DNA of 39,230 nucleotides from assembly GCA_947459425.1 (NCBI GenBank), contig CANHDJ010000032.1:1-39230 (forward strand). The letters run 5' to 3'. The notes under the pieces are model-generated. The model searched no databases, was not told the DNA's origin, and saw nothing but the letters and a program-made list of their open reading frames with translations. Shown here piece after piece: positions 5,806 through 39,230 of this stretch; within the stretch, counting starts at the first letter, position 1, and each line of letters begins with the position of its first letter. The DNA comes from Ignavibacteria bacterium (GTDB lineage Bacteria; Bacteroidota; Ignavibacteria; Kapaibacteriales; UBA4661). Made by a program: the position numbers and the translations under genes.

Positions 5806-8800
5806 CTACCGAATAATCACCATCGCCTTCGCACCAGTAAACGTGCCGCTTTGCAACACGTAGTGATAAACGCCTTGTGCCAAATTCCGCGTCTCGGTTT
5901 CAACGGCATAGCGTCCTTGTTGCAAAATCTGCCCATCCAAAAGCGTCTGCACAGCGTTTCCGCGATGGTCGTAGATGACCAATCGTGCGGCGGCGGTCTC
6001 GGCGAGTTCAAACTCAATCGTGGTGCGGTCTGTCGCCGGATTCGGATAGCTCTGAAATAATTGTGCGGCGACAACGGTGCCGTTTTGTGACGGAGCGCGT
6101 AAAAACGTGATATTGCAGATGCCGTCTGTCGTCCACACGGCAGCGCTTGGAATAGGGCGAATGCGCAGAAACATCAGGCTATCCGAGCGAAACGATGCGG
6201 AATCGCTGCTCACCAGCATCGGCGTTATCAGTGTATCCGGCACTGCGACTACAAACCGCAAAAAGGCGACTGTTCCTGCTCTGAGCGAATCAACATTGCT
6301 AAAATTCAGTGTTAATGCGCCCCGCAGGGCTGCATTTCGTGGAAATGCGTTCTGTGCCGTAAGCGACGCGCCTGCAAGCGGTGTTGTTGCGCCGATGTAC
6401 TTCAGCGAATAGGGACTGTATGCCAGATTCACGGTAAAACGAAATTTTCGTAGCCAAAACTGCGTTCCGCCCAGTGTTGTCGCCATATCGCGGTTAATAA
6501 GCAGGGGCAGCGTGAGCGTATCGCCAATCGTACCGCGCAATGTGGCACTTGTGAAGGAGAATGTGATCGGAAAGTCCGGTCGGAAGCCGCGTCCGGCGAT
6601 AGTTGCTTGCGTAACGCTGGTGCAAGGAAGTTCGGAACGCACCGCCATCACCGTATCAATGCGGTTTTCGGTGCGAGGGCAGTATTGCAACGTGAGCGTG
6701 AGCGTCCCGCCAACCCGCACCGAATCGGTCAAAGGCGGCGTGGCAGCAATAATGCGAACATCCGGCGGCACATTCACGAGTGAAAACGCCCGCACTGCCA
6801 CATCACCCGTATTGCGCACCGTCAGCAAGCGCGTGGCGCATCCCAAAATCTGTACGCTGTCGAACTGCACCGTCGGGCTTGGCAGCGCGGGCGCATCAAT
6901 CCTCGTTTCTTGCACAATCACCCTCCCCGTCACTCCTGCGGGAATCAGGGTGAAGGGCGCTCCGCTCACCGCACGAGCAACAATGCTGTCAATAACAATA
7001 GGGAACGTGGCTCTGCGCCCCGTGATACTCGCAAACTGAACACGGAAGAGCGCCCGAACGGAATCAAGCCGTATGCTGCCCAACCGCAATTCCACACCGC
7101 CGTTTGTAGAGCGCATCAGCACTTGGCTTTGCGGCAGATGGTCGGAAAATGCGGCGACGGCGCGGATTTTCGTCGTGTCGAAAGCAAGGCGTAGTCGGAT
7201 GTTCAGCGAATCCTGAACTTTTTGCGGTGAGAAAATCGGTACGCTGACCGTGCCACACGTCGTGACGCGGAATGTGTCTGTTACCGCCGATACGTTGTTG
7301 AACCAAATCGGCAAGCCGAGTGGTGCCATAAAACTCGAACTTTGCACCAAAATTGTCGTGTCAATGTCGCGGCAGGGCTGCGATTGATACAGCACCATCC
7401 GTGCGGTGTAGGGACGGGCTTCCGTTGGGCGAAAACCCACGACAACCTGCGTTGGCGGCTGGTTTGGCTGAATGGTAAACCGCCCCACAGGAGAAATGAC
7501 GCGGAATGCTTGCGGAGTTGTCGGAAAGCCGTCTGCCGCCTGAAAGCCGATAGAATCTATCACCACAGGCTGCGGAGAAGGGTTTTGCGAAATACCCGTT
7601 GGGATGCTGAGGCTCACGCTCACGGGCATAGCATCCGTGCCGACAATCGGCGCAACGGGGAAATTCACCACCGTCGGCACAGGCGTAAAGACCAGTGTTC
7701 GCCGTCCCGTCAGGTCAATCGTGAAGCGCTGTTGCCGTGCGGGGCTTTGCGCAACAATGGTAAGCGATGCAGCATTGAGAACGTTTTGCGGCGTGGAAAT
7801 GGAGCGCGGGCAAAAGCGAACCGTGATGGTATCGGTGGCTTGCGGAGGAATTTGGTACGGCGTTGTGCCATTCGGCGAAAAGCGCGAAGTCCACGTGAAA
7901 AACTCCGGCTTGCTGGCAGTTGGCTCGTTGTCATTCGCCCCAATAACGGCGCTTTGAACGGTGAATGCATTGGCAAGCGAGGAGTTGAAGAGCGTGGTCG
8001 TCGCGGTGCGACATTCGCAAGGGCGTGTAAAGCTGATATTGACAGGGTTTGCGCCCGCTTCGAGGTCAGAGCGGATGCCACGCCCTTGGAATCGTCCCGC
8101 CACACTTGCCGGACAGGGCGATTGCGAAAAAGCCGTAACCGTGCCATCGTAGCTTGTTTCCTCTTGTGGCGTGAAGGTCACGCCAAAGCGCACCGTTTCT
8201 CGCGGCTGTAATTGTGCAGACAGCATTTTTTCACTCCAATGCAGCGTAAAACCATTGGGAAGCGTGATTCTATCAAGGCTGATGGGAACAAGCGAAATAT
8301 TTTCCACGACAATCGTATCGCGCTTAGTGTCGCCGATTTCCACTGCCCCAAACGCTGTGACGGGCGTAATAAAGAGCTTTGGTGCAACGGAAGTTCCGCG
8401 AATACTGAGTTGCCACTGCTGCCCTGCGGCGGTGAAGGTGATAAAAGCAGCATCCGTGCGGTCTTGCACGAGATCGGCGGGACTGTAACGAATATCAACA
8501 GCAAGCGATCTGCCACTGGGAATTGTGGTGGAAACAATATTCACGCCGTCTAAGCCTGATATAAGCTGGAAGCGCCCCGTAGGATTATTAAAACGAATGT
8601 CCGTTAATACTTGGTCGGTGCCGGAAATATTCACGATGGTAAGTGTTGCGAGGCTACTGGAACACCCCAACACTCCGTCAAGCCTCGCCACAGGCGGTTC
8701 GATGCGGAAAATCTCTTCTGAGCCTCGTCCTTGCAAGGTGGCGCACGTCGTGAAAAAACAGCGCTGCTCGGAAACGCAGATCTCATCGGCGTAGTCGGCA

Positions 8801-10863
8801 CTGGCGCTGGGGCGAAATGCGATGGGAATGTTGACCGCGCCATTCGGCGGCAGCGTGAAGGAGCGTGCGCCCGTGAGGAAAAAATTGTCGCCTCGCCGGA
8901 GATACACCACCAAGCGCAAGGTGTCTTCGGCGCTGGGGTTTGTGAGGCGAACTGAATTTGTGCCTTGCTGCCCGACGGTGACCGTGCCAAAGTTCACCGC
9001 GCTCGGCAGAAGATTGACCACCGTCGCATTACCGCGCCCCGACACGTAAATTTTTTTCTCAAAACTGCACGTTGCGCCGCCCGGAAGACCGCTTGGAACG
9101 CTGGCGCGAATAATCACCGAATCCCGTACCAAGCCTGGTTGAAGCGGTGCAAAACGGAGAAAATTGGGGTCAGCGAACAAGCCCGGACGCAGCAATATCG
9201 GGTACCGCAGTGAGCGAGAGCGCATGAAGGCAGGAACAATCACGGTATCAATGCGGACATCAGTGCTGGAAATAGCGCTTTCCCACGTAAAATCGAATGG
9301 ATCGGAAATACCGCTTTGCGGACATTCGCGCCCGAAGGCAACGCTGTCCAACCGCGCCAAACCATAGCCGCGCCGAATAATAATTGCTTCTTCGATGCGC
9401 CCCGCAAGCGGCAGAGCCAATTCCGGCTGGCAAGCATCGCCCGTGCGGACGCGCAGTGTGTCGAAATACGTGTTTGCGGTGTCCGTCGCTGAAAACCGCA
9501 CCGTTACTTGCGCCGACGCACCGGCAGTCAGCGTTTGCGTGAGATTACCGATGATGCGAAACATTTGCGCCCGTTGCTGCCGGAATCCTTGGAGGGCAAT
9601 GGGTTGTGTCCCCGTATTGCGCAGCGTCAAGGTTTGGTCAATAAACGGCACTTCGCGGCAGCCCGCATACAGCGTTGCAAAGGTGACGCTTGCGGGGGAA
9701 GGCTGCAACACGGTTGTTCGCGTGAGATTAAAGGGGATGTCGGTGGTGTCGCCGCAAAGATTTTCGCGGGCAATCCGCAAGGTGGCGCGGATGTCTCCGG
9801 TGAGTTGGGTGGAAAGCCGCACCGTTGCTTGCCCAACGGCTCCGGCGGGAAGCGTTATTCGCGCCGGGCTGACGGAAAATTCCCCTGCGGCAGCACCCGA
9901 AAAATTGAGCGTAATATTTTCAGAACAGCCCGCCGACAGCGATTGTATCACGACGTTATAGGTACGGACTTGCGCACAGCTAAAATTCTCACCTACCAAA
10001 GTCGGCTGAACACTGAACGAAGGCGGTATGACGCGGTTTTGTGTGGGGGCTTGGCAACGAGCGCCGGAGCGGAGTTCGCAGAGCGTGTTATTTGGGCTTG
10101 CGTCGCAGAGCCTCGTTGCATTGGCGGCTTCGTTGCACCGATTGTACAGCACCAAATTTGGCTCATTCCCCCGCAATGCTCTGTGCAAGCCGCATAAAAT
10201 CTCGTTTTGCGACAGTACCCGCGACCACAACCGTATTTCGTCCATCTGTCCGCGAAAAGTTGAGTTCTGCTCCCCAAAATTGCCCAAGGCGTTGGTGCTG
10301 CCGATTTGTAATTTGAGCGAGGGCGTTTGTAAGGTGCGAAGGCGGCTTGCGGGTGCGGTGGCATTACGGTTTTGTGCGACCTGCACGCCGTTGAGAAAAA
10401 TGGTAGCAGTTTGCGTTGCGCCGTTAAAGACCGCCGCAATGTGATTCCATGCGCCATAGCGCCCCGCAAAACTTATACGGGCAATCGTATTATCCATTGC
10501 GCCGAGCGCAGTTGTTGCTCCGTTAATTTCAAAAACAAGTTCGTCTTGAGGCGAGATATACAGCACCCACACGTCGTTTGCGTCGGTATTTGGTCCCCAA
10601 AGTCCGGCGATAAATTGCCGTGCGCCCGCCACACGCTGAGGATTTATCCACGCTTCAAAGGTGAGAACTGTCGAAAGCGCGTTTTGAGCGGCATTGGGGC
10701 TAACGTCCACGTATTGCGGTTGGGCGTTTTGCGTCAAGGTGAGTGCATTGCCGAGACAGGTTTGGAGCGTGTCGCAGCGTGATTGCGCCTGAGCGCGGGG
10801 AAAGGATAGTGCGGCAAGAAGACCAACAAGCGCAACTGAGAAAACGAAACGAGGTATAGCCAC
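5806..10863 (-). CDS. T9SS-exported modular protein with LamG, ASH and cohesin-like domains (1685 aa)
   Basis: A large cell-surface or secreted protein. It starts at GTG (10863): an in-frame TGA lies just upstream, and the signal peptide (MAIPRFVFSVALVGLLAALS, cleavage near AQA-QS) begins exactly here. In order: a LamG/concanavalin-like domain (about residues 40-235, with LTFEAWINPQ and DEIRLWSRVLS); a long run of immunoglobulin-like ASH/choice-of-anchor-D repeats (about 285-1190), marked by recurring VNFGTVTVGQ-type strands and VRF.P motifs; two cohesin-like beta-sandwiches (about 1196-1315 and 1431-1581, the second with FSFTSATLRGTIGDTLTLPL); and a T9SS type A sorting domain (about 1601-1685, LFQSYPNPATDRTTIEFEL, ending KAMVIIR). 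It probably acts in surface adhesion or binding; no enzymatic site is visible. An OmpA-family gene lies upstream on the same strand, separated by about 240 bases that contain an inverted repeat. Confidence 0.9.
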   Translation of the reverse strand: MAIPRFVFSVALVGLLAALSFPRAQAQSRCDTLQTCLGNALTLTQNAQPQYVDVSPNAAQNALSTVLTFEAWINPQRVAGARQFIAGLWGPNTDANDVWVLYISPQDELVFEINGATTALGAMDNTIARISFAGRYGAWNHIAAVFNGATQTATIFLNGVQVAQNRNATAPASRLRTLQTPSLKLQIGSTNALGNFGEQNSTFRGQMDEIRLWSRVLSQNEILCGLHRALRGNEPNLVLYNRCNEAANATRLCDASPNNTLCELRSGARCQAPTQNRVIPPSFSVQPTLVGENFSCAQVRTYNVVIQSLSAGCSENITLNFSGAAAGEFSVSPARITLPAGAVGQATVRLSTQLTGDIRATLRIARENLCGDTTDIPFNLTRTTVLQPSPASVTFATLYAGCREVPFIDQTLTLRNTGTQPIALQGFRQQRAQMFRIIGNLTQTLTAGASAQVTVRFSATDTANTYFDTLRVRTGDACQPELALPLAGRIEEAIIIRRGYGLARLDSVAFGRECPQSGISDPFDFTWESAISSTDVRIDTVIVPAFMRSRSLRYPILLRPGLFADPNFLRFAPLQPGLVRDSVIIRASVPSGLPGGATCSFEKKIYVSGRGNATVVNLLPSAVNFGTVTVGQQGTNSVRLTNPSAEDTLRLVVYLRRGDNFFLTGARSFTLPPNGAVNIPIAFRPSASADYADEICVSEQRCFFTTCATLQGRGSEEIFRIEPPVARLDGVLGCSSSLATLTIVNISGTDQVLTDIRFNNPTGRFQLISGLDGVNIVSTTIPSGRSLAVDIRYSPADLVQDRTDAAFITFTAAGQQWQLSIRGTSVAPKLFITPVTAFGAVEIGDTKRDTIVVENISLVPISLDRITLPNGFTLHWSEKMLSAQLQPRETVRFGVTFTPQEETSYDGTVTAFSQSPCPASVAGRFQGRGIRSDLEAGANPVNISFTRPCECRTATTTLFNSSLANAFTVQSAVIGANDNEPTASKPEFFTWTSRFSPNGTTPYQIPPQATDTITVRFCPRSISTPQNVLNAASLTIVAQSPARQQRFTIDLTGRRTLVFTPVPTVVNFPVAPIVGTDAMPVSVSLSIPTGISQNPSPQPVVIDSIGFQAADGFPTTPQAFRVISPVGRFTIQPNQPPTQVVVGFRPTEARPYTARMVLYQSQPCRDIDTTILVQSSSFMAPLGLPIWFNNVSAVTDTFRVTTCGTVSVPIFSPQKVQDSLNIRLRLAFDTTKIRAVAAFSDHLPQSQVLMRSTNGGVELRLGSIRLDSVRALFRVQFASITGRRATFPIVIDSIVARAVSGAPFTLIPAGVTGRVIVQETRIDAPALPSPTVQFDSVQILGCATRLLTVRNTGDVAVRAFSLVNVPPDVRIIAATPPLTDSVRVGGTLTLTLQYCPRTENRIDTVMAVRSELPCTSVTQATIAGRGFRPDFPITFSFTSATLRGTIGDTLTLPLLINRDMATTLGGTQFWLRKFRFTVNLAYSPYSLKYIGATTPLAGASLTAQNAFPRNAALRGALTLNFSNVDSLRAGTVAFLRFVVAVPDTLITPMLVSSDSASFRSDSLMFLRIRPIPSAAVWTTDGICNITFLRAPSQNGTVVAAQLFQSYPNPATDRTTIEFELAETAAARLVIYDHRGNAVQTLLDGQILQQGRYAVETETRNLAQGVYHYVLQSGTFTGAKAMVIIR

Positions 10864-15267: not shown

Positions 15268-18200
15268 TCACCGCGCCAATGTAAATATCTCTCGCAATTC
15301 TTTATTCGACATATCGGTAATCCAGTTTTCGCCTGTGCCGACGGTCAAATTTGCCAATTCTTGTTTTGCTTGAATCATCGCGTCAATTTTCTCCTCAAAT
15401 GTGGCTTGCGTAATGAACCGATGCACCTGCACATTTTTTACCTGCCCGATACGATAAGCGCGGTCAGTTGCTTGATTCTCCACCGCCGGATTCCACCAAA
15501 GGTCGTAGTGGATAACATTTGTGGCGGCGGTGAGATTTAATCCCGTGCCGCCCGCTTTGAGCGAAACAATCATAAACCGCGTGGCTGCGTCGTTTTGAAA
15601 GGTTTCCACAAGTTTGTCGCGTTTGGGTCTCGCTACTCCGCCGTGAAAAAAGAGTGCCTCAGCGTTTAACTCCTCAGCAATCATGCGCTCCAGCAGCGTT
15701 CCCATTTCTTTGTACTGCGTAAAAATAAGCGCCTTTTCGTCCGATTCTTGAATACTATCCAGAAGTTCCATCAGCCGTGCGGCTTTGCCGGAATCTTTGC
15801 TGTGCGGGTCGCCTTTTTTTGCGTAGTGTGCCGGGTGGTTACAAATTTGTTTGAGTGCTGTTATCATGCTAAAAATCAAGCCGGAACGGGCAATGGTGTC
15901 GCTCTCGTCCTTGCCTTCGATTGCCTTGAGAGCATTCTGCACGGCGCTTTCGTAGAGTGCTGCTTGCGATTTGGTGAGTGTGCAGTACTCGTTGGTAATG
16001 ATTTTATCGGGCAGATCGGCAATAATGCTTTTGTCCGACTTCAAACGTCGCAAAATAAACGGTGCCGTTACGCGGCGCAAACGCTCAATGCTGTCCGCGT
16101 CGCGGTCTTTTTCAATCGGCTTGATAAAATCATCACGGAAGCGCGTAATACCGTGCAGATAGCCCTTATTCAGCCAATCAAAGAGCGACCACAATTCCGA
16201 CAGGCGATTTTCCACCGGTGTACCCGATAGCGCCAGACGCATCGGTACGGGAATGGATTTCACGGCTTTGGTTTGTGCGGTGTCGTGATTTTTCATGTTT
16301 TGCGCTTCATCCACAATGGCGATGCTCCACGGGTGCGCCGCAAACTCCTTCATTTCGCGCCGCACAATACCGTAGGTGGTAATAACAAGATCGCTGCCTT
16401 CAAAATCAAAGGTACGATCAGCGCCGTGATAAATACTCGCCGTCAACTCTGGCGTAAAGCGATTACACTCGCGGAGCCAGTTCGTGACAAGCGTAGTGGG
16501 GCAAATAATGAGCGCATGGTGCGGAAGTTTGCCGTCATCCTTCAGGCGCTGGAGTAGGGATAGTGCTTGCAGCGTTTTTCCCAAGCCCATGTCATCCGCT
16601 AAAATTACCCCAAAACCGCGCTCCATTGTCGAATACATCCACTGAAAACCGCGCTCTTGATAAGGACGCAAGGTTGCACGGATGCTGCTCGGTAGCGTAA
16701 TATCCTCAATGCTCGTCAGCGATTGAAGTGCGCTTTTGAAAGCAGCATCGCCATCGAAGACAAATCCTTCTTCTTCACCTGCCAAAAGCGCCCTCAATGC
16801 CGCTTGTCCGCTCAATTTCACGCCGCCGTCGAGTTTTTCCAGCAGTGCTTGTGCTTCGGTAGGCGAAAGCATAACGTAGGAATTGCGGAAGCGCGTAATA
16901 CCGTTTGCTTCCTTCAAAAGCCGCTTAAATTCTGGCACCGACACGCTTTCATCGCCAATGGCAACGTCATACTCAAATTTTATCAAATCCAGCATCGAAA
17001 GAAACGTCTGCCCGCCGTGACTTTTTACTTTCGCACGGGGGCGCGGGCGAACAAGCCGCACCAATGCTTGCGGAAGAATCAAACTTACGCCCAGTTCGCG
17101 CAAACGATGTGCGGTTTCGGTTAAAAACGTGTAGAGTTCGGAAAGCGGCAACTGGACAGGTACGCCACGCTCTGCATTTCGCGCATCCAGCATCCATGAG
17201 AGTTCGGGGAAATATTTGGTGGCTTCATCAAGCGTCCGCAGCACGAGTGTTTGGATTTTCTCCGCATCCTGCCCCAAGACTTTCCCTTGAGCATTCAATA
17301 CTTGACGAATCGGAATCGGCTGCGCAAGAGGATTCATGCGGTCTTGCACTTCGCAATGCAGAACAAAGGGCGCGTTGGGATTGTCCGTAATAGCGTCGTC
17401 TGCCGGCTCTTCGATGCGCAGAATTGGCGTAATATCTAGCCCCGACACATCCAACCACGAAAGCCATTCGTGAATTTCGTTTGCCAAAATTGTTACGGGT
17501 ACACTGTTGGAAAAAAGCGGTATCGGCTCGGCAAACATCTCCGACAAAGCATCGGTTAGATGAGCGCCATAGCGCCCTTTGCGTATGGTTTGATGCACAA
17601 CTTCGGTCAATATATCCGAAAAAAGAGTATCAAAACTCTCCGCCGACAAACCGGCAGAATGCTCTTTGTTGATGCACATTTCGGGCGGTAACAAGCCGCG
17701 AAGCGTTGCCATGAGCCGATCCAGTGCTTCTTTGTCTTCTGCTCGGCGCACGAATGGCTCATAGCGAATGTAGTAGCGTACATCTTCGTTTTTGCCGAAA
17801 ATCTTTTTCACGGCTTGTGCTGTTCGGGCTATAACGCCTGTTTTGGCAAGTTTTTCGGGCTGCTTCTGGTCGCCAAAACGCACCAAAACAGGCTTGAGCG
17901 ATAGCGTTGAAACAAGCCTATACGCTACATCCAGCGCCGCACAGAAAAATCGTGACGACTCGGTATGAAATTTCTGCGTCGAAAACCCCGCAACGCTGGA
18001 ACAGATTTCGATAAGTGTTTCCAGCGAAGCAAAGGTCACATCCTGCGCAACGACGCGGATACTACTTTTTTGCCACGTTGGAAGTTTGATACTTTTGACC
18101 TCATTGCGGCGGGCAAGGCGGATAAATTCAAAATGCTCGTCAGGAACGGTGAGGTAGGAATACCAGTATTGATGTTCGTGGTCGTACTCTAACCAAATAT

Positions 18201-35925: not shown

Positions 35926-38295
35926 ATGAAATCGCTACCGACTTCTTCCAGCGCGGAGCCGCCGCCGCCGACAACTTTGGCGACATCGTCTTCCGGCAAT
36001 GATTTTTTTTCGCATCTTTTGAATAATCGACCGCTCAAAAGTAAAATCGCCATGATTGTCACGCCGTTGATTATCATTGCGCTTTATGGTATGGGCTTCG
36101 AGTTGTGGTCGGCATATAAGCGCTATACGCGGGCGCAAGAACTAGAACAGGCAAATCGTTTTTCGGATTATATTCTCAAAGCCGCCGGGACGCAAGCAAA
36201 AGAGCGTGGATTCACCGCTACTGCGCTTTCTAATCCACAAGACCAAAAAACACTCAAGAACATTGCAGCTTTGCGCACCAGTGGCGATGCGTATTTGGAC
36301 TCTGCCTTGCGCCTTCTGTCGCTTGACACAAAAGCAGAAACGCGCGTTGCCGTCCAACTCGCAAAATTCAAGGAAGTCCGCATCAAACGTGACGATTTTC
36401 GCAAACGCAATGATGAAATCTTGGGAAAATCCAGCCCCGAAGCAGGCATTATCAAACAATGGATTGCCGTGCAATCAGCAATGATTATGGCAGAACATGA
36501 ACTTGCGAGTGCTACATTTACGGGAGAAAGCCGTTTGGAAGCGATTCTTGCCCTGAACAGTAGCATCAAAAATAGCGTGTTTTATGCCAGCGAATTTTCA
36601 GGGCGAGAGCGGGCAAATATTGGGACGGTTATTGGTTCCGGCAAGCCTATTGACGCAGAGCGTTTTGCCAGCCTTATGCAGTTTCGCGGCATTGTGCAGG
36701 AGCATTGTGATAATATTCTCGCCTTTCGCAATAATCCCGCAATTACCCCTACCATCAAAGCCAGCATTGACACGATGCAGCGCGTGTTCCTCACGGAATT
36801 TGAGACAACGCGCAAAAGTATTTATCAAGCAAGCACCGATAGCGCCGGAAAGCCATCGGCAGCATACCCAATTACCACCGCAGAATGGATACAACGCTCC
36901 ACAGCAGCAATTAACGCTATTTTGAAGGTTTCCGATACTGTCAGCGAAGAAGTCGCCACACTCGCGGCAATGGAGCGTCGGAATAGTCTGTATGCGGTGT
37001 TTGTTGCCACAATCATTGTTATTGTGTTGGTGTTGGTGATTTTGTTGTCGAATGCTATCAGTACACTTGTTGTCAATCGCATTGTTCGCCTTCGCAATAC
37101 CGCGCAAAAGGTGGAACAAGGCGATTTGGATGTGCGTTTGAAGGATGACGCGATGCAGGACGAAATTGGCGATTTGACGCACTCGTTTCACGGCATGATT
37201 GCGTCTTTGAAGCAAGGACTTAACGACCTCGCCCTAGAGAAAGCAAGTGTAGATCGCAAAGTAGAGGAAGCCATTCACGAAATCCGCGACCAGCGCGAAT
37301 ACTTGCAACACAGTGTCCAAGAAATGCTTGCGGCTGTGGAGGAATTTTCGCGGGGAAACCTTACAACCCGCCTTGTGCCTCAGCGTCAGGATGAAATTGG
37401 TACGCTCTTCGAGGGGTATAATCAAGCACTGGAAAATGTGCGATTGATGATTGCGAAAGTTATTGAAGAATCGGAAATTACCGCCAGCGCAAGTACGCAA
37501 ATCACGACGAGTATTGAACATATGGCGCGTGGCATCCATCGTCAACAAGAACAATCCAGCTATATTGCCGTAGCAACCGAAGAAATGACAAAAACGATTG
37601 AAGAAACCACCCGAAGTACGGCGCTTGTGGCGGAGCAATCGCAGCAAGCACGAAAAGAAGCCGAATTGGGCGGTGCTTCGCTAGAGCGCATGGTGGCTGC
37701 TATTGACAGTGTGAATAATATTGTCAGTCGCTCTGCAAAAAGCGTGGAGCATCTAAACACCAGCAGTGAACACATCAGCGATATGGCAAATGCAATTGCC
37801 GAAATTGCTGACCAGACGAATCTTCTCGCCTTGAATGCCGCCATCGAAGCAGCCCGCGCAGGCGAGCAGGGACGCGGCTTTGCCGTTGTTGCCGATGAAG
37901 TCCGTAAACTTGCCGAACGCACACAAGAGGCAACGAAAGAAATTTCGCTGGTTGTACGCACTATTCGGCAAGACACACAAAACGTGGTGGAGACGATGAC
38001 TGTCGGGGTTCGCGAAGTGGAGCAGACGCAAGCGCTGGCTGGCTCACTATCGCAATCCTTTGGGCGCATTGTGACGCGCACCGGAGAAATTTCCGATTTT
38101 GTCTCCCAACTCGCTGTTACAACCGAAGAACAGTACGCCACAAGCGCCGACATTGCAGCAAATATGGATACAATGACGATGGTTGTGTCGCAGTCAGCAG
38201 CCGTGAGCGAGGAAATTGCTCAGACTTCGGAGAGTTTGAATCAAATGACTCTAGCCGTACAGCGCCTGATGCAGAGATTCAAGGTCGAGAAATAG
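35926..38295 (+). CDS. methyl-accepting chemotaxis protein with NIT-type sensor domain
   Basis: A 789-aa transmembrane chemoreceptor. The ATG at 35926 is preferred over an upstream in-frame TTG at 35896. Residues 1-35 are Ser/Pro/Thr-rich and cytoplasmic. TM1 (about 40-60, [18 protein letters not shown]) leads to a periplasmic helical sensor resembling a NIT (nitrate/nitrite-sensing) domain (about 70-345, with [16 protein letters not shown]). TM2 is about 355-378 ([17 protein letters not shown]). A HAMP domain follows (about 380-432), then a second HAMP-like segment (about 460-515, [22 protein letters not shown]) and the signalling hairpin (about 622-673, [20 protein letters not shown] and [16 protein letters not shown]). 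There is no C-terminal CheR-binding pentapeptide. It would relay ligand state to CheA/CheW encoded elsewhere; no che or motility gene lies in this window. Confidence 0.92.
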
Positions 38296-38531
38296 AGCAA
38301 GTTTGCGGATTTTTGCTCACTTTAAGGTTTTTTGCATCGTCCTGAAAAAAGTTGGCAAAAAGCCTTCTCAACTTCAATCAGGAGTTTCGGTCTGCTATGA
38401 AAAAAAGTAAGGCTATCAATTTTTTTTCTTGGAAAAGTGGTCGGGGGGTGGGATAGTTTTGCATTGGTCTCTCTGCTAGCGAGAAACCGTGTCAAATCCT
38501 TTCTTTTTAGTATATTTACAGGAGTTTCCGA

Positions 38532-38744
38532 ATGGAAAACGTAAAGAAAAAATTGAACCTTGAGGATATCAAGGTCAAAAGCTTTGTAACAGCGAATGCC
38601 AATTTGCTTGACACAATTCGTATTCAAGGTGGTGATACAAATGGCTCATGCTGGCACCCATGTACAGACTTGGGTGGAGATGGGACTTGTACTAAAGGTA
38701 GAAATTGCCAAGGTTCTTCAGACCCTATCGCATTTCAGTGTTAA
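38532..38744 (+). CDS. putative RiPP precursor, pinensin-like lanthipeptide family
   Basis: A 70-aa peptide gene with a strong ribosome-binding site (AGGAG, 7 bases before the ATG). The N-terminal half (MENVKKKLNLEDIKVKSFVT) matches the Bacteroidota class I/pinensin leader pattern, KxL-x-L-[DE]-x-[IL]-x-V-x-S-F-x-T. It ends in RIQGG (residues 30-34), a double-glycine processing site. The 36-residue putative core (35-70) has five cysteines (40, 44, 53, 59, 70) and seven Ser/Thr (36, 39, 45, 52, 54, 62, 63), including SCWHPC, GTC and GRNC. Dehydration of Ser/Thr and thioether closure onto Cys would be the expected modification if LanB/LanC-type enzymes act on it. An alternative is a disulphide-bonded small exported peptide. 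No LanB, LanC, transporter or peptidase lies within the window; a terminator and an IS1 element follow. Confidence 0.75.
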   Translation: MENVKKKLNLEDIKVKSFVTANANLLDTIRIQGGDTNGSCWHPCTDLGGDGTCTKGRNCQGSSDPIAFQC

Positions 38745-38808
38745 ATGAAGTAGTAGTCAATCAAAAGTATTTGTAGATATTTCGACAGGTTCAGCATGAG
38801 ATTGGAAG

Positions 38809-38935
38809 CGCTCTTCACCATTATACGTCAAAATTTGTTTGATGAACCATACTTAAAAAGGGTAAAAACTGTATACCCAGCACCCGCTTGGGCGGCAGCG
38901 TTTTCGCATTTCTCATCCGTCAGACGGGAAGAGCG
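38809..38935 (+). ncRNA. possible structured untranslated RNA downstream of the RiPP precursor
   Basis: CGCTCTTC (38809-38816) pairs perfectly with GAAGAGCG (38928-38935). Inside lie three short hairpins: GGGTA/TACCC (38860-38864 with 38874-38878), CCGC-TTGG-GCGG (38884-38895) and CCGT-CAG-ACGG (38917-38927). Together they could fold as a multibranched RNA ending 39 bases before the terminator at 38975. Individual stems are short and could be chance. A 51-codon frame (38796-38951) overlaps it; I see no family for that. Confidence 0.3.
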
Positions 38936-38974
38936 TTTTAACCTTTTTTAGTATAGTAGGCTGTTCCAAGTGAC

Positions 38975-39013
38975 AAGAGCAGTAAAACACTGCCGTTTTA
39001 CTGCTCTTTTTTT
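38975..39013 (+). terminator. strong intrinsic terminator
   Basis: A perfect 14-bp stem (AAGAGCAGTAAAAC at 38975-38988 with GTTTTACTGCTCTT at 38995-39008), a 6-base loop and a T-run to 39013. It probably ends the transcript carrying the RiPP precursor, leaving a 3' region of about 230 bases. It also separates that transcript from the IS1 element. Confidence 0.9.
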
Positions 39014-39084
39014 AACAATTCTTGTTTTACCCCCTAGAATGAAAAATATACTTTTGCATACACATTTATTCTTATTGTTCAATG

Positions 39085-39230
39085 GGTAGTGGTCAAGTAA
39101 TACATGAGAGATTGTAAGTAATAATAAACATTTCGGTTACAATCTGATGCCAAAAGTCTCGTTTGGAAAACGAGAGGGTTTTGCGGACATAACGCCCCAC
39201 TCGTTGCCGAAGGGTGTTGTTCCACCGCTC
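39085..39230 (-). mobile_element. end of an IS1-family insertion sequence
   Basis: The transposase stop codon sits within about 10 bases of GGTAGTGGTCAAG (39085-39097), which I take to be the terminal inverted repeat: IS1-family ends begin with GG and overlap the end of the transposase gene. The exact boundary and the target duplication need the other end, which is outside the window. Confidence 0.5.
39093..39230 (-). CDS. IS1-family transposase, C-terminal part (cut by the window edge)
   Basis: The minus strand is open from the window edge to a TGA at 39093-39095, giving 45 residues. They begin ERWNNTLRQRVGRYVRKTLS and continue FSKRDFWHQIV, closely matching the C-terminal end of IS1-family (InsB-type) transposases, which typically read ERxNxTLRQRxxRxxRKTLSFSK. 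The leading Glu may be the catalytic DDE glutamate. The rest of the gene lies to the right of the window. Whether the element is intact cannot be judged. Confidence 0.88.
   Translation of the reverse strand, partial: ERWNNTLRQRVGRYVRKTLSFSKRDFWHQIVTEMFIITYNLSCIT

Follow-up and report, generated by a model that had tools for sequence, protein, structure and literature searches.

Known pinensin-type systems and the locus analyzed

Pinensins have been assigned to precursor family I 17 of the class I lanthipeptides, and their biosynthesis involves a split LanB (PMC7268733). The class I leaders of Bacteroidota are described in the same source as carrying an LxLxKx5L motif and a GG end, with a C39 protease. 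In the prochlorosins, one synthetase serves many precursors (see also PMC10783134).

We analyzed a small gene near the end of a 39,230-nucleotide stretch of DNA, here called the window, which is contig C32 of its own genome (G000; 3.4 Mb, 93 contigs, 86.6% complete). Like the pinensin family, its leader exceeds the cut-off of the family model, and its relatives have a split LanB, LanC and a C39 transporter; unlike it, the enzymes were not found in G000, and Chitinophaga is a different bacterial group. With the LxLxKx5L leaders it shares the GG end, and a C39 transporter is present in the cluster of a genome of the same genus, G006, whereas the precursor described here has LxLEDIKVxSF. The system resembles the prochlorosins in that a conserved leader precedes many divergent cores, 17 of them in G006, while the enzymes are few; its enzymes, however, are class I split LanB and LanC rather than a class II ProcM.

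Our best reading, with a probability of roughly 0.7 for family and build, is that the product of the gene is a lanthipeptide precursor of class I whose leader is pinensin-type, and that it belongs to a diverse Candidatus Kapaibacterium-like precursor family. The range of pinensin-type lanthipeptides thereby grows to include a little-studied group represented here solely by metagenome-assembled genomes (MAGs). Literature searches found nothing joining pinensin with an orphan precursor; for Kapabacteria with lanthipeptide there was nothing on the subject among the matches listed, and in the broader lanthipeptide literature Kapabacteria or Kapaibacteri were absent among the matches listed.

A short gene with a pinensin-type leader

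The gene and its parts are located as follows in the window.

38520..38524, + strand: ribosome-binding site AGGAG; AGGAGTTT is kept in 6 of 6 aligned upstream regions
38532..38744, + strand: precursor peptide gene of 70 aa; open reading frame with an NF038180 match of 35.3 bits and a closest relative found that is 55% identical
38532..38633, + strand: leader, residues 1-34, with GG end; NF038180 match at residues 6-34, model positions 1-28 of 28
38634..38741, + strand: core, residues 35-70, with five Cys and seven Ser/Thr; in the comparison with L041:1588-1806, pN is far lower than pS

The initial annotation had proposed a 70-aa gene with an AGGAG site, a leader of the pattern KxLxL[DE]x[IL]xVxSFxT, a GG junction and a core with five Cys and seven Ser/Thr. 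All of these could be placed by position: the reading frame runs from an ATG at 38532 to a TAA at 38742-38744, the distance from AGGAG to the ATG is seven bases, the motif covers residues 6-20, and GG corresponds to residues 33-34. Its assignment to the pinensin-type leader family also held when tested with NF038180 (NCBIfam, pinensin family lanthipeptide), on which the leader scored above the curated cut-off of 24 bits with all 28 model positions covered. Across all six frames, the window contains the leader motif a single time, and none of 60 first-order Markov copies contains it; this test was made after the fact, because the motif came from the finding under test. In Pfam, the precursor gave only a weak coiled-coil match (E 0.11, 12.6 bits, cut-off 28.7).

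The core cysteines are at positions 40, 44, 53, 59 and 70, and the Ser/Thr residues at 36, 39, 45, 52, 54, 62 and 63. Two details of the earlier description had to be corrected. The gaps between the cysteines (3, 8, 5 and 10) give one CxxxxxC spacing rather than two. Furthermore, the odd cysteine count does not imply a free thiol: a lanthionine consumes a single Cys and a single Ser/Thr, and the seven Ser/Thr are therefore enough for all five Cys. A plausible pairing would be T36-C40, S39-C44, T45-C53, T54-C59, and S62 or S63 with C70.

The core is conserved in one relative

The closest relative found, L041:1588-1806 in genome G007, aligns with the precursor across its whole length, and its core is the sole similar one found in a scan of named genomes. 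It retains all five core cysteines, S39, T45, T54 and a hydroxyl at position 63 (S63 as Thr), and is without T52 and S62. The expected conservation of GG and the core cysteines in relatives was thus observed in one relative. Elsewhere in the genus, precursors built in the same way are genes of their own, and the gene is therefore not a fragment of a larger protein. On NF038180, L041 scores 20.6 bits, under the curated cut-off of 24.

Between the two cores, pS was 0.83 and pN 0.22, giving a pN/pS of 0.2-0.3 with synonymous sites saturated; in the conserved block the values were 0.81 and 0.16. The values for the core point to long-standing selection on the peptide. Being small and located at a contig end, the frame might be taken for a chance ORF or for part of a larger protein. 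This is contradicted by the leader match, the upstream region common to other precursors, the relative with the same core, the low pN relative to pS and the lack of the motif in the Markov copies, and we rejected the idea, which we consider hardly credible. The ORF at 38532-38744 is a real gene; the family of its precursor is already known, and its core is a new member.

Occurrence of the leader in the genus and the phylum

The scan of named genomes matched 105 stretches, seven of which encode a relative, in six loci. Four of these loci are from MAGs of Candidatus Kapaibacterium (Prado071; 336R_metabinner_7), and an Ignavibacteria MAG (STA_27) and a Saprospiraceae MAG contribute one each. NCBI places Kapaibacterium in Bacteroidota, class Eximiradiia. 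The leader model matched in 5 of 80 relatives at an E value of 0.01 or better, in four of them over the cut-off (G000, G001, G006 and G007), and in none of 14 control genomes. In a sample spread over the phylum, 3 of 392 genomes matched at 1e-4 or better (G000, G007 and G403). A match in G014 was set aside as chance (19.5 bits, below the cut-off, within a 380-aa frame).

Altogether, 30 leader matches were held by four of the eight genus genomes searched. A motif scan of the fetched stretches counted 17 precursors in G006, seven in G001, five in G007 and one in G000, in agreement with the leader-model counts for these genomes, as well as three in STA_27 and one in G403. These counts include one copy at G001:C68 whose leader has no in-frame ATG close by, as well as two short-core copies in G001 with one or two Cys. 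Outside STA_27, GG or GA was present in 29 of the 31 precursors within the stretch scanned, and the cores of these 31 contained from 1 to 12 Cys, most genus cores being Cys-rich.

L094, a Saprospiraceae peptide without Cys, passes the NF038180 cut-off at 25.0 bits, and no lan genes were recognized when the ORFs listed for its 12.7 kb were read by eye. Therefore, the leader alone is no proof of lanthionines, and L094 was left out of the count of genomes with enzymes.

Lanthionine enzymes accompany the leader in other genomes

We searched for the enzymes that a lanthipeptide precursor would need. LanC (LANC_like, PF05147) was found in 2 of 11 genomes tested, and of the LanB domains (PF04738, PF14028), Lant_dehydr_N and Lant_dehydr_C were each found in 2 of 10; in every case the genomes were G001 and G006. 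Both are also among the 8 of 10 genomes with a C39 peptidase, which was not found in G000 or G003. A tailored profile detected LanB in G001, G006 and G403, whose own sequences are part of it, and no divergent LanB in the other six of nine genomes, G000 and G007 included. In the assembly of G000, LanB (both models), LanC and C39 peptidase were thus all not found; the absence of LanB is not certain because the genome is 86.6% complete. LanB and LanC were not found in G007 either, although this genome is rated 99% complete and carries the closest relative. A simple reading meets its main difficulty here, because LanB and LanC were found in neither of the two genomes that have this core.

The leader type occurs together with split LanB and LanC in four other genomes (G001, G006, G403 and STA_27), and it is encoded beside LanB/LanC at G006:C44, G001:C440, G001:C262, G403:C34 and in STA_27. 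At G006:C44, 15 of the 17 precursors lie between a C39 transporter and a LytTR response regulator with LanC; of the remaining two, one lies beyond the transporter and one adjoins Lant_dehydr_C. The order in G403, a genome of the same class, is LanB-N, LanB-C, LanC and then the precursor, and in the Ignavibacteria genome STA_27 the precursors adjoin LanB-N, LanB-C and LanC.

By analogy with these relatives, the precursor would follow a modification and export route. The large protein of the split LanB would glutamylate Ser/Thr residues of the core, and the small protein would eliminate glutamate to yield Dha/Dhb. LanC would then add the Cys thiols to form (methyl)lanthionine rings, and a C39-peptidase ABC transporter with its HlyD partner would cut after GG and export the product.

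It could be argued that the peptide is unmodified and disulfide bonded, its leader being a double-glycine export signal only, given that G000 and G007 have precursors with a core under selection and that LanB and LanC were found in neither; the Cys-rich nature of most genus cores would fit as well. However, the search for a C39 peptidase was negative in G000. G007 has a single one, but its contig shows no leader match, and the small GG-leader-like peptide encoded some 5 kb away is a different one. The odd number of cysteines is awkward for disulfides, and the leader co-occurs with lanthionine enzymes in four other genomes. We thus regard an unmodified peptide as improbable and favor a lanthipeptide precursor.

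Two short LanB-like fragments were seen near contig ends in G006, at C44:48943-49047 and at C21:51-143, the latter with two internal stops. They are either broken extra LanB copies or, for the C44 fragment, the result of a contig break. The G006:C44 locus (L033) also harbors arrays of a 21-bp unit (GGAGTGAACGTAGGCAAAAAC): seven between 3528 and 10381, with 3.3-3.5 copies each, and one at 16499-16551 with 2.5 copies. Each of the seven lies at most 260 bp upstream of a precursor start. The LytTR regulator, whose gene is close by, may use the arrays as its sites.

Precursor genes share an upstream region

The region preceding the gene contains the following features.

38413..38531, + strand: upstream region common to other precursor genes of the genus; DNA search, 7 places in 4 of 8 genomes, with a further copy at G007:C38
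38454..38461, + strand: TAGTTTTG, candidate -7 box; TA and TTTG invariant in seven sequences
38466..38488, + strand: hairpin or palindrome; the loop TGCTAGC is constant, the stem covaries; seven copies compared

The DNA search with the 122 bp before the gene recovered the window itself, two copies at G001:C68, one at G006:C44, two at G007:C108 and a partial one at G000:C85. The G006:C44 copy, 84% identical over 110 bases, precedes the precursor that adjoins Lant_dehydr_C (LanB-C). The candidate box TAGTTTTG fits TAnnTTTG, the pattern of the Bacteroidota -7 box.

Across seven copies, the partial C85 copy being left out, 91.1% of the cells of the 8-pair stem were paired, compared to 34-56% when the stem was slid, and three of the eight pairs were changed on both sides. 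None of 500 shuffles reached the paired cells or the covariation score, whereas 272 had as many as three pairs changed on both sides, and 498 equaled the stem in its number of pair types; independent covariation events are few because there are two main stem versions. Upon folding of four copies, the stem was formed in three and not by the window's own, with unremarkable z-scores of -1.2 to +0.4. The element could be a hairpin in the mRNA or else an operator.

Secreted-looking S41 peptidases or erythromycin-esterase-like proteins are encoded near several precursors, at G006:C44, G007:C54, G007:C108, G001:C68, G001:C486 and G001:C262. The frame at G001:C262 is cut by the contig end; it matches the S41 query by tblastn and reaches no Pfam S41 model. 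No such neighbor was noted beside the G007:C30 and C38 precursors, whose ORF lists were read by eye. As a guess, these proteins could act in self-protection or maturation. In G000, the tblastn search for the peptidase neighbor returned only a distant S41 (27%).

Signs of decay in the genome of the window

Two repeats follow the gene.

38849..38956, no strand assigned: dispersed repeat, about 105 bp long; the same genome has 16 further places at 73-88% identity, some partial
39083..39230, - strand: end of an IS1-family element, at which the contig stops; repeat search, PF03400 22.9 bits

The IS1-like element lies about 340 bp downstream of the precursor gene, and its frame resembles the C terminus of an IS1 transposase, with a PF03400 score just under the cut-off of 24.1. 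Its end recurs at 99-100% identity over 101-150 bp in at least 19 other places, at least 17 of them seen as contig ends, these counts being lower bounds from 40 of 79 scored candidates. Because this repeat is common to so many contig ends, the contig cannot be extended rightwards. A biosynthetic cluster had been expected just there; the contig stops in the repeat, and the assembly shows none of the enzymes looked for. The dispersed repeat is probably outside the precursor system. Rfam found no family at gathering score in 38290-39230, the dispersed repeat included; four matches below that score, to unrelated eukaryotic or plastid families, were taken as chance.

A second locus was found in G000 on contig C85. 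Positions 132-236 hold a 105-bp tail of an S41 peptidase, which has 84% identity to the S41 gene on G007:C108; too short for the tblastn cut-off, it surfaced through the promoter search. It is followed by part of the shared promoter (245-296) and by a 229-bp stretch with 19-base inverted ends (303-531; L110), apparently an element that has interrupted one copy of the promoter found before the precursors. Neither the leader-model search nor reading of the locus revealed a precursor behind this copy. G007:C108 still has S41, promoter and precursor in unbroken order, and its S41 gene adjoins the relative. From this comparison we infer that G000 once held more of the system. The surroundings of the precursor gene likewise look partly decayed.

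Taken with the lack of enzymes in the assembly, the IS1-like element downstream and the second promoter locus, with its peptidase remnant and no precursor, make the gene look like an orphan of a lanthipeptide system. A working locus, with LanB, LanC and C39 genes in unassembled or unbinned DNA that modify the peptide in trans, is possible and yet, in our view, unlikely. The incomplete assembly in 93 contigs, many of which stop in the same IS end, leaves room for it, and some G001 precursors (C68, C486 and C432) are on contigs without LanC/LanB matches. Against this, four enzyme families are all missing from G000, the sister locus at C85 is decayed, and G007 is likewise without LanB or LanC at 99% completeness. 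On the orphan reading, ring formation and export would be the work of such a system, and the strain would have lost production; whether it makes a product is uncertain.

More speculatively, and with considerable doubt, Kapaibacterium-like bacteria might possess a class I counterpart of the prochlorosins, in which one split LanB/LanC set would serve many pinensin-leader precursors, some spread chromosome-wide behind a shared hairpin promoter. Some lineages (G000 and G007) would keep selected precursors after enzyme loss, borrowing modification or exporting unmodified peptides. Selected precursors in genomes where LanB and LanC were not found raise the question of what the leader is for, and the 17 divergent cores of G006, with one enzyme set, could be tested together.

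HINT-domain precursors in STA_27

The three pinensin-leader precursors of STA_27 (L092:8001-8726, 8776-9546 and 9596-10360), located beside LanB-N, LanB-C and LanC, are 241-256 aa long; two of the three were tested on NF038180 and scored 40.0 and 41.6 bits. Each harbors a PT-HINT/intein-like domain within a Cys-rich core (PF07591, E 8e-17 to 1e-20). We found no literature on a lanthipeptide with a HINT domain, and among the matches listed for lanthipeptide and intein no title concerned such precursors. The last residues of the domain are VHN and the next one is Lys, and ordinary splicing therefore looks unlikely; self-cleavage or cyclization would be our guess.
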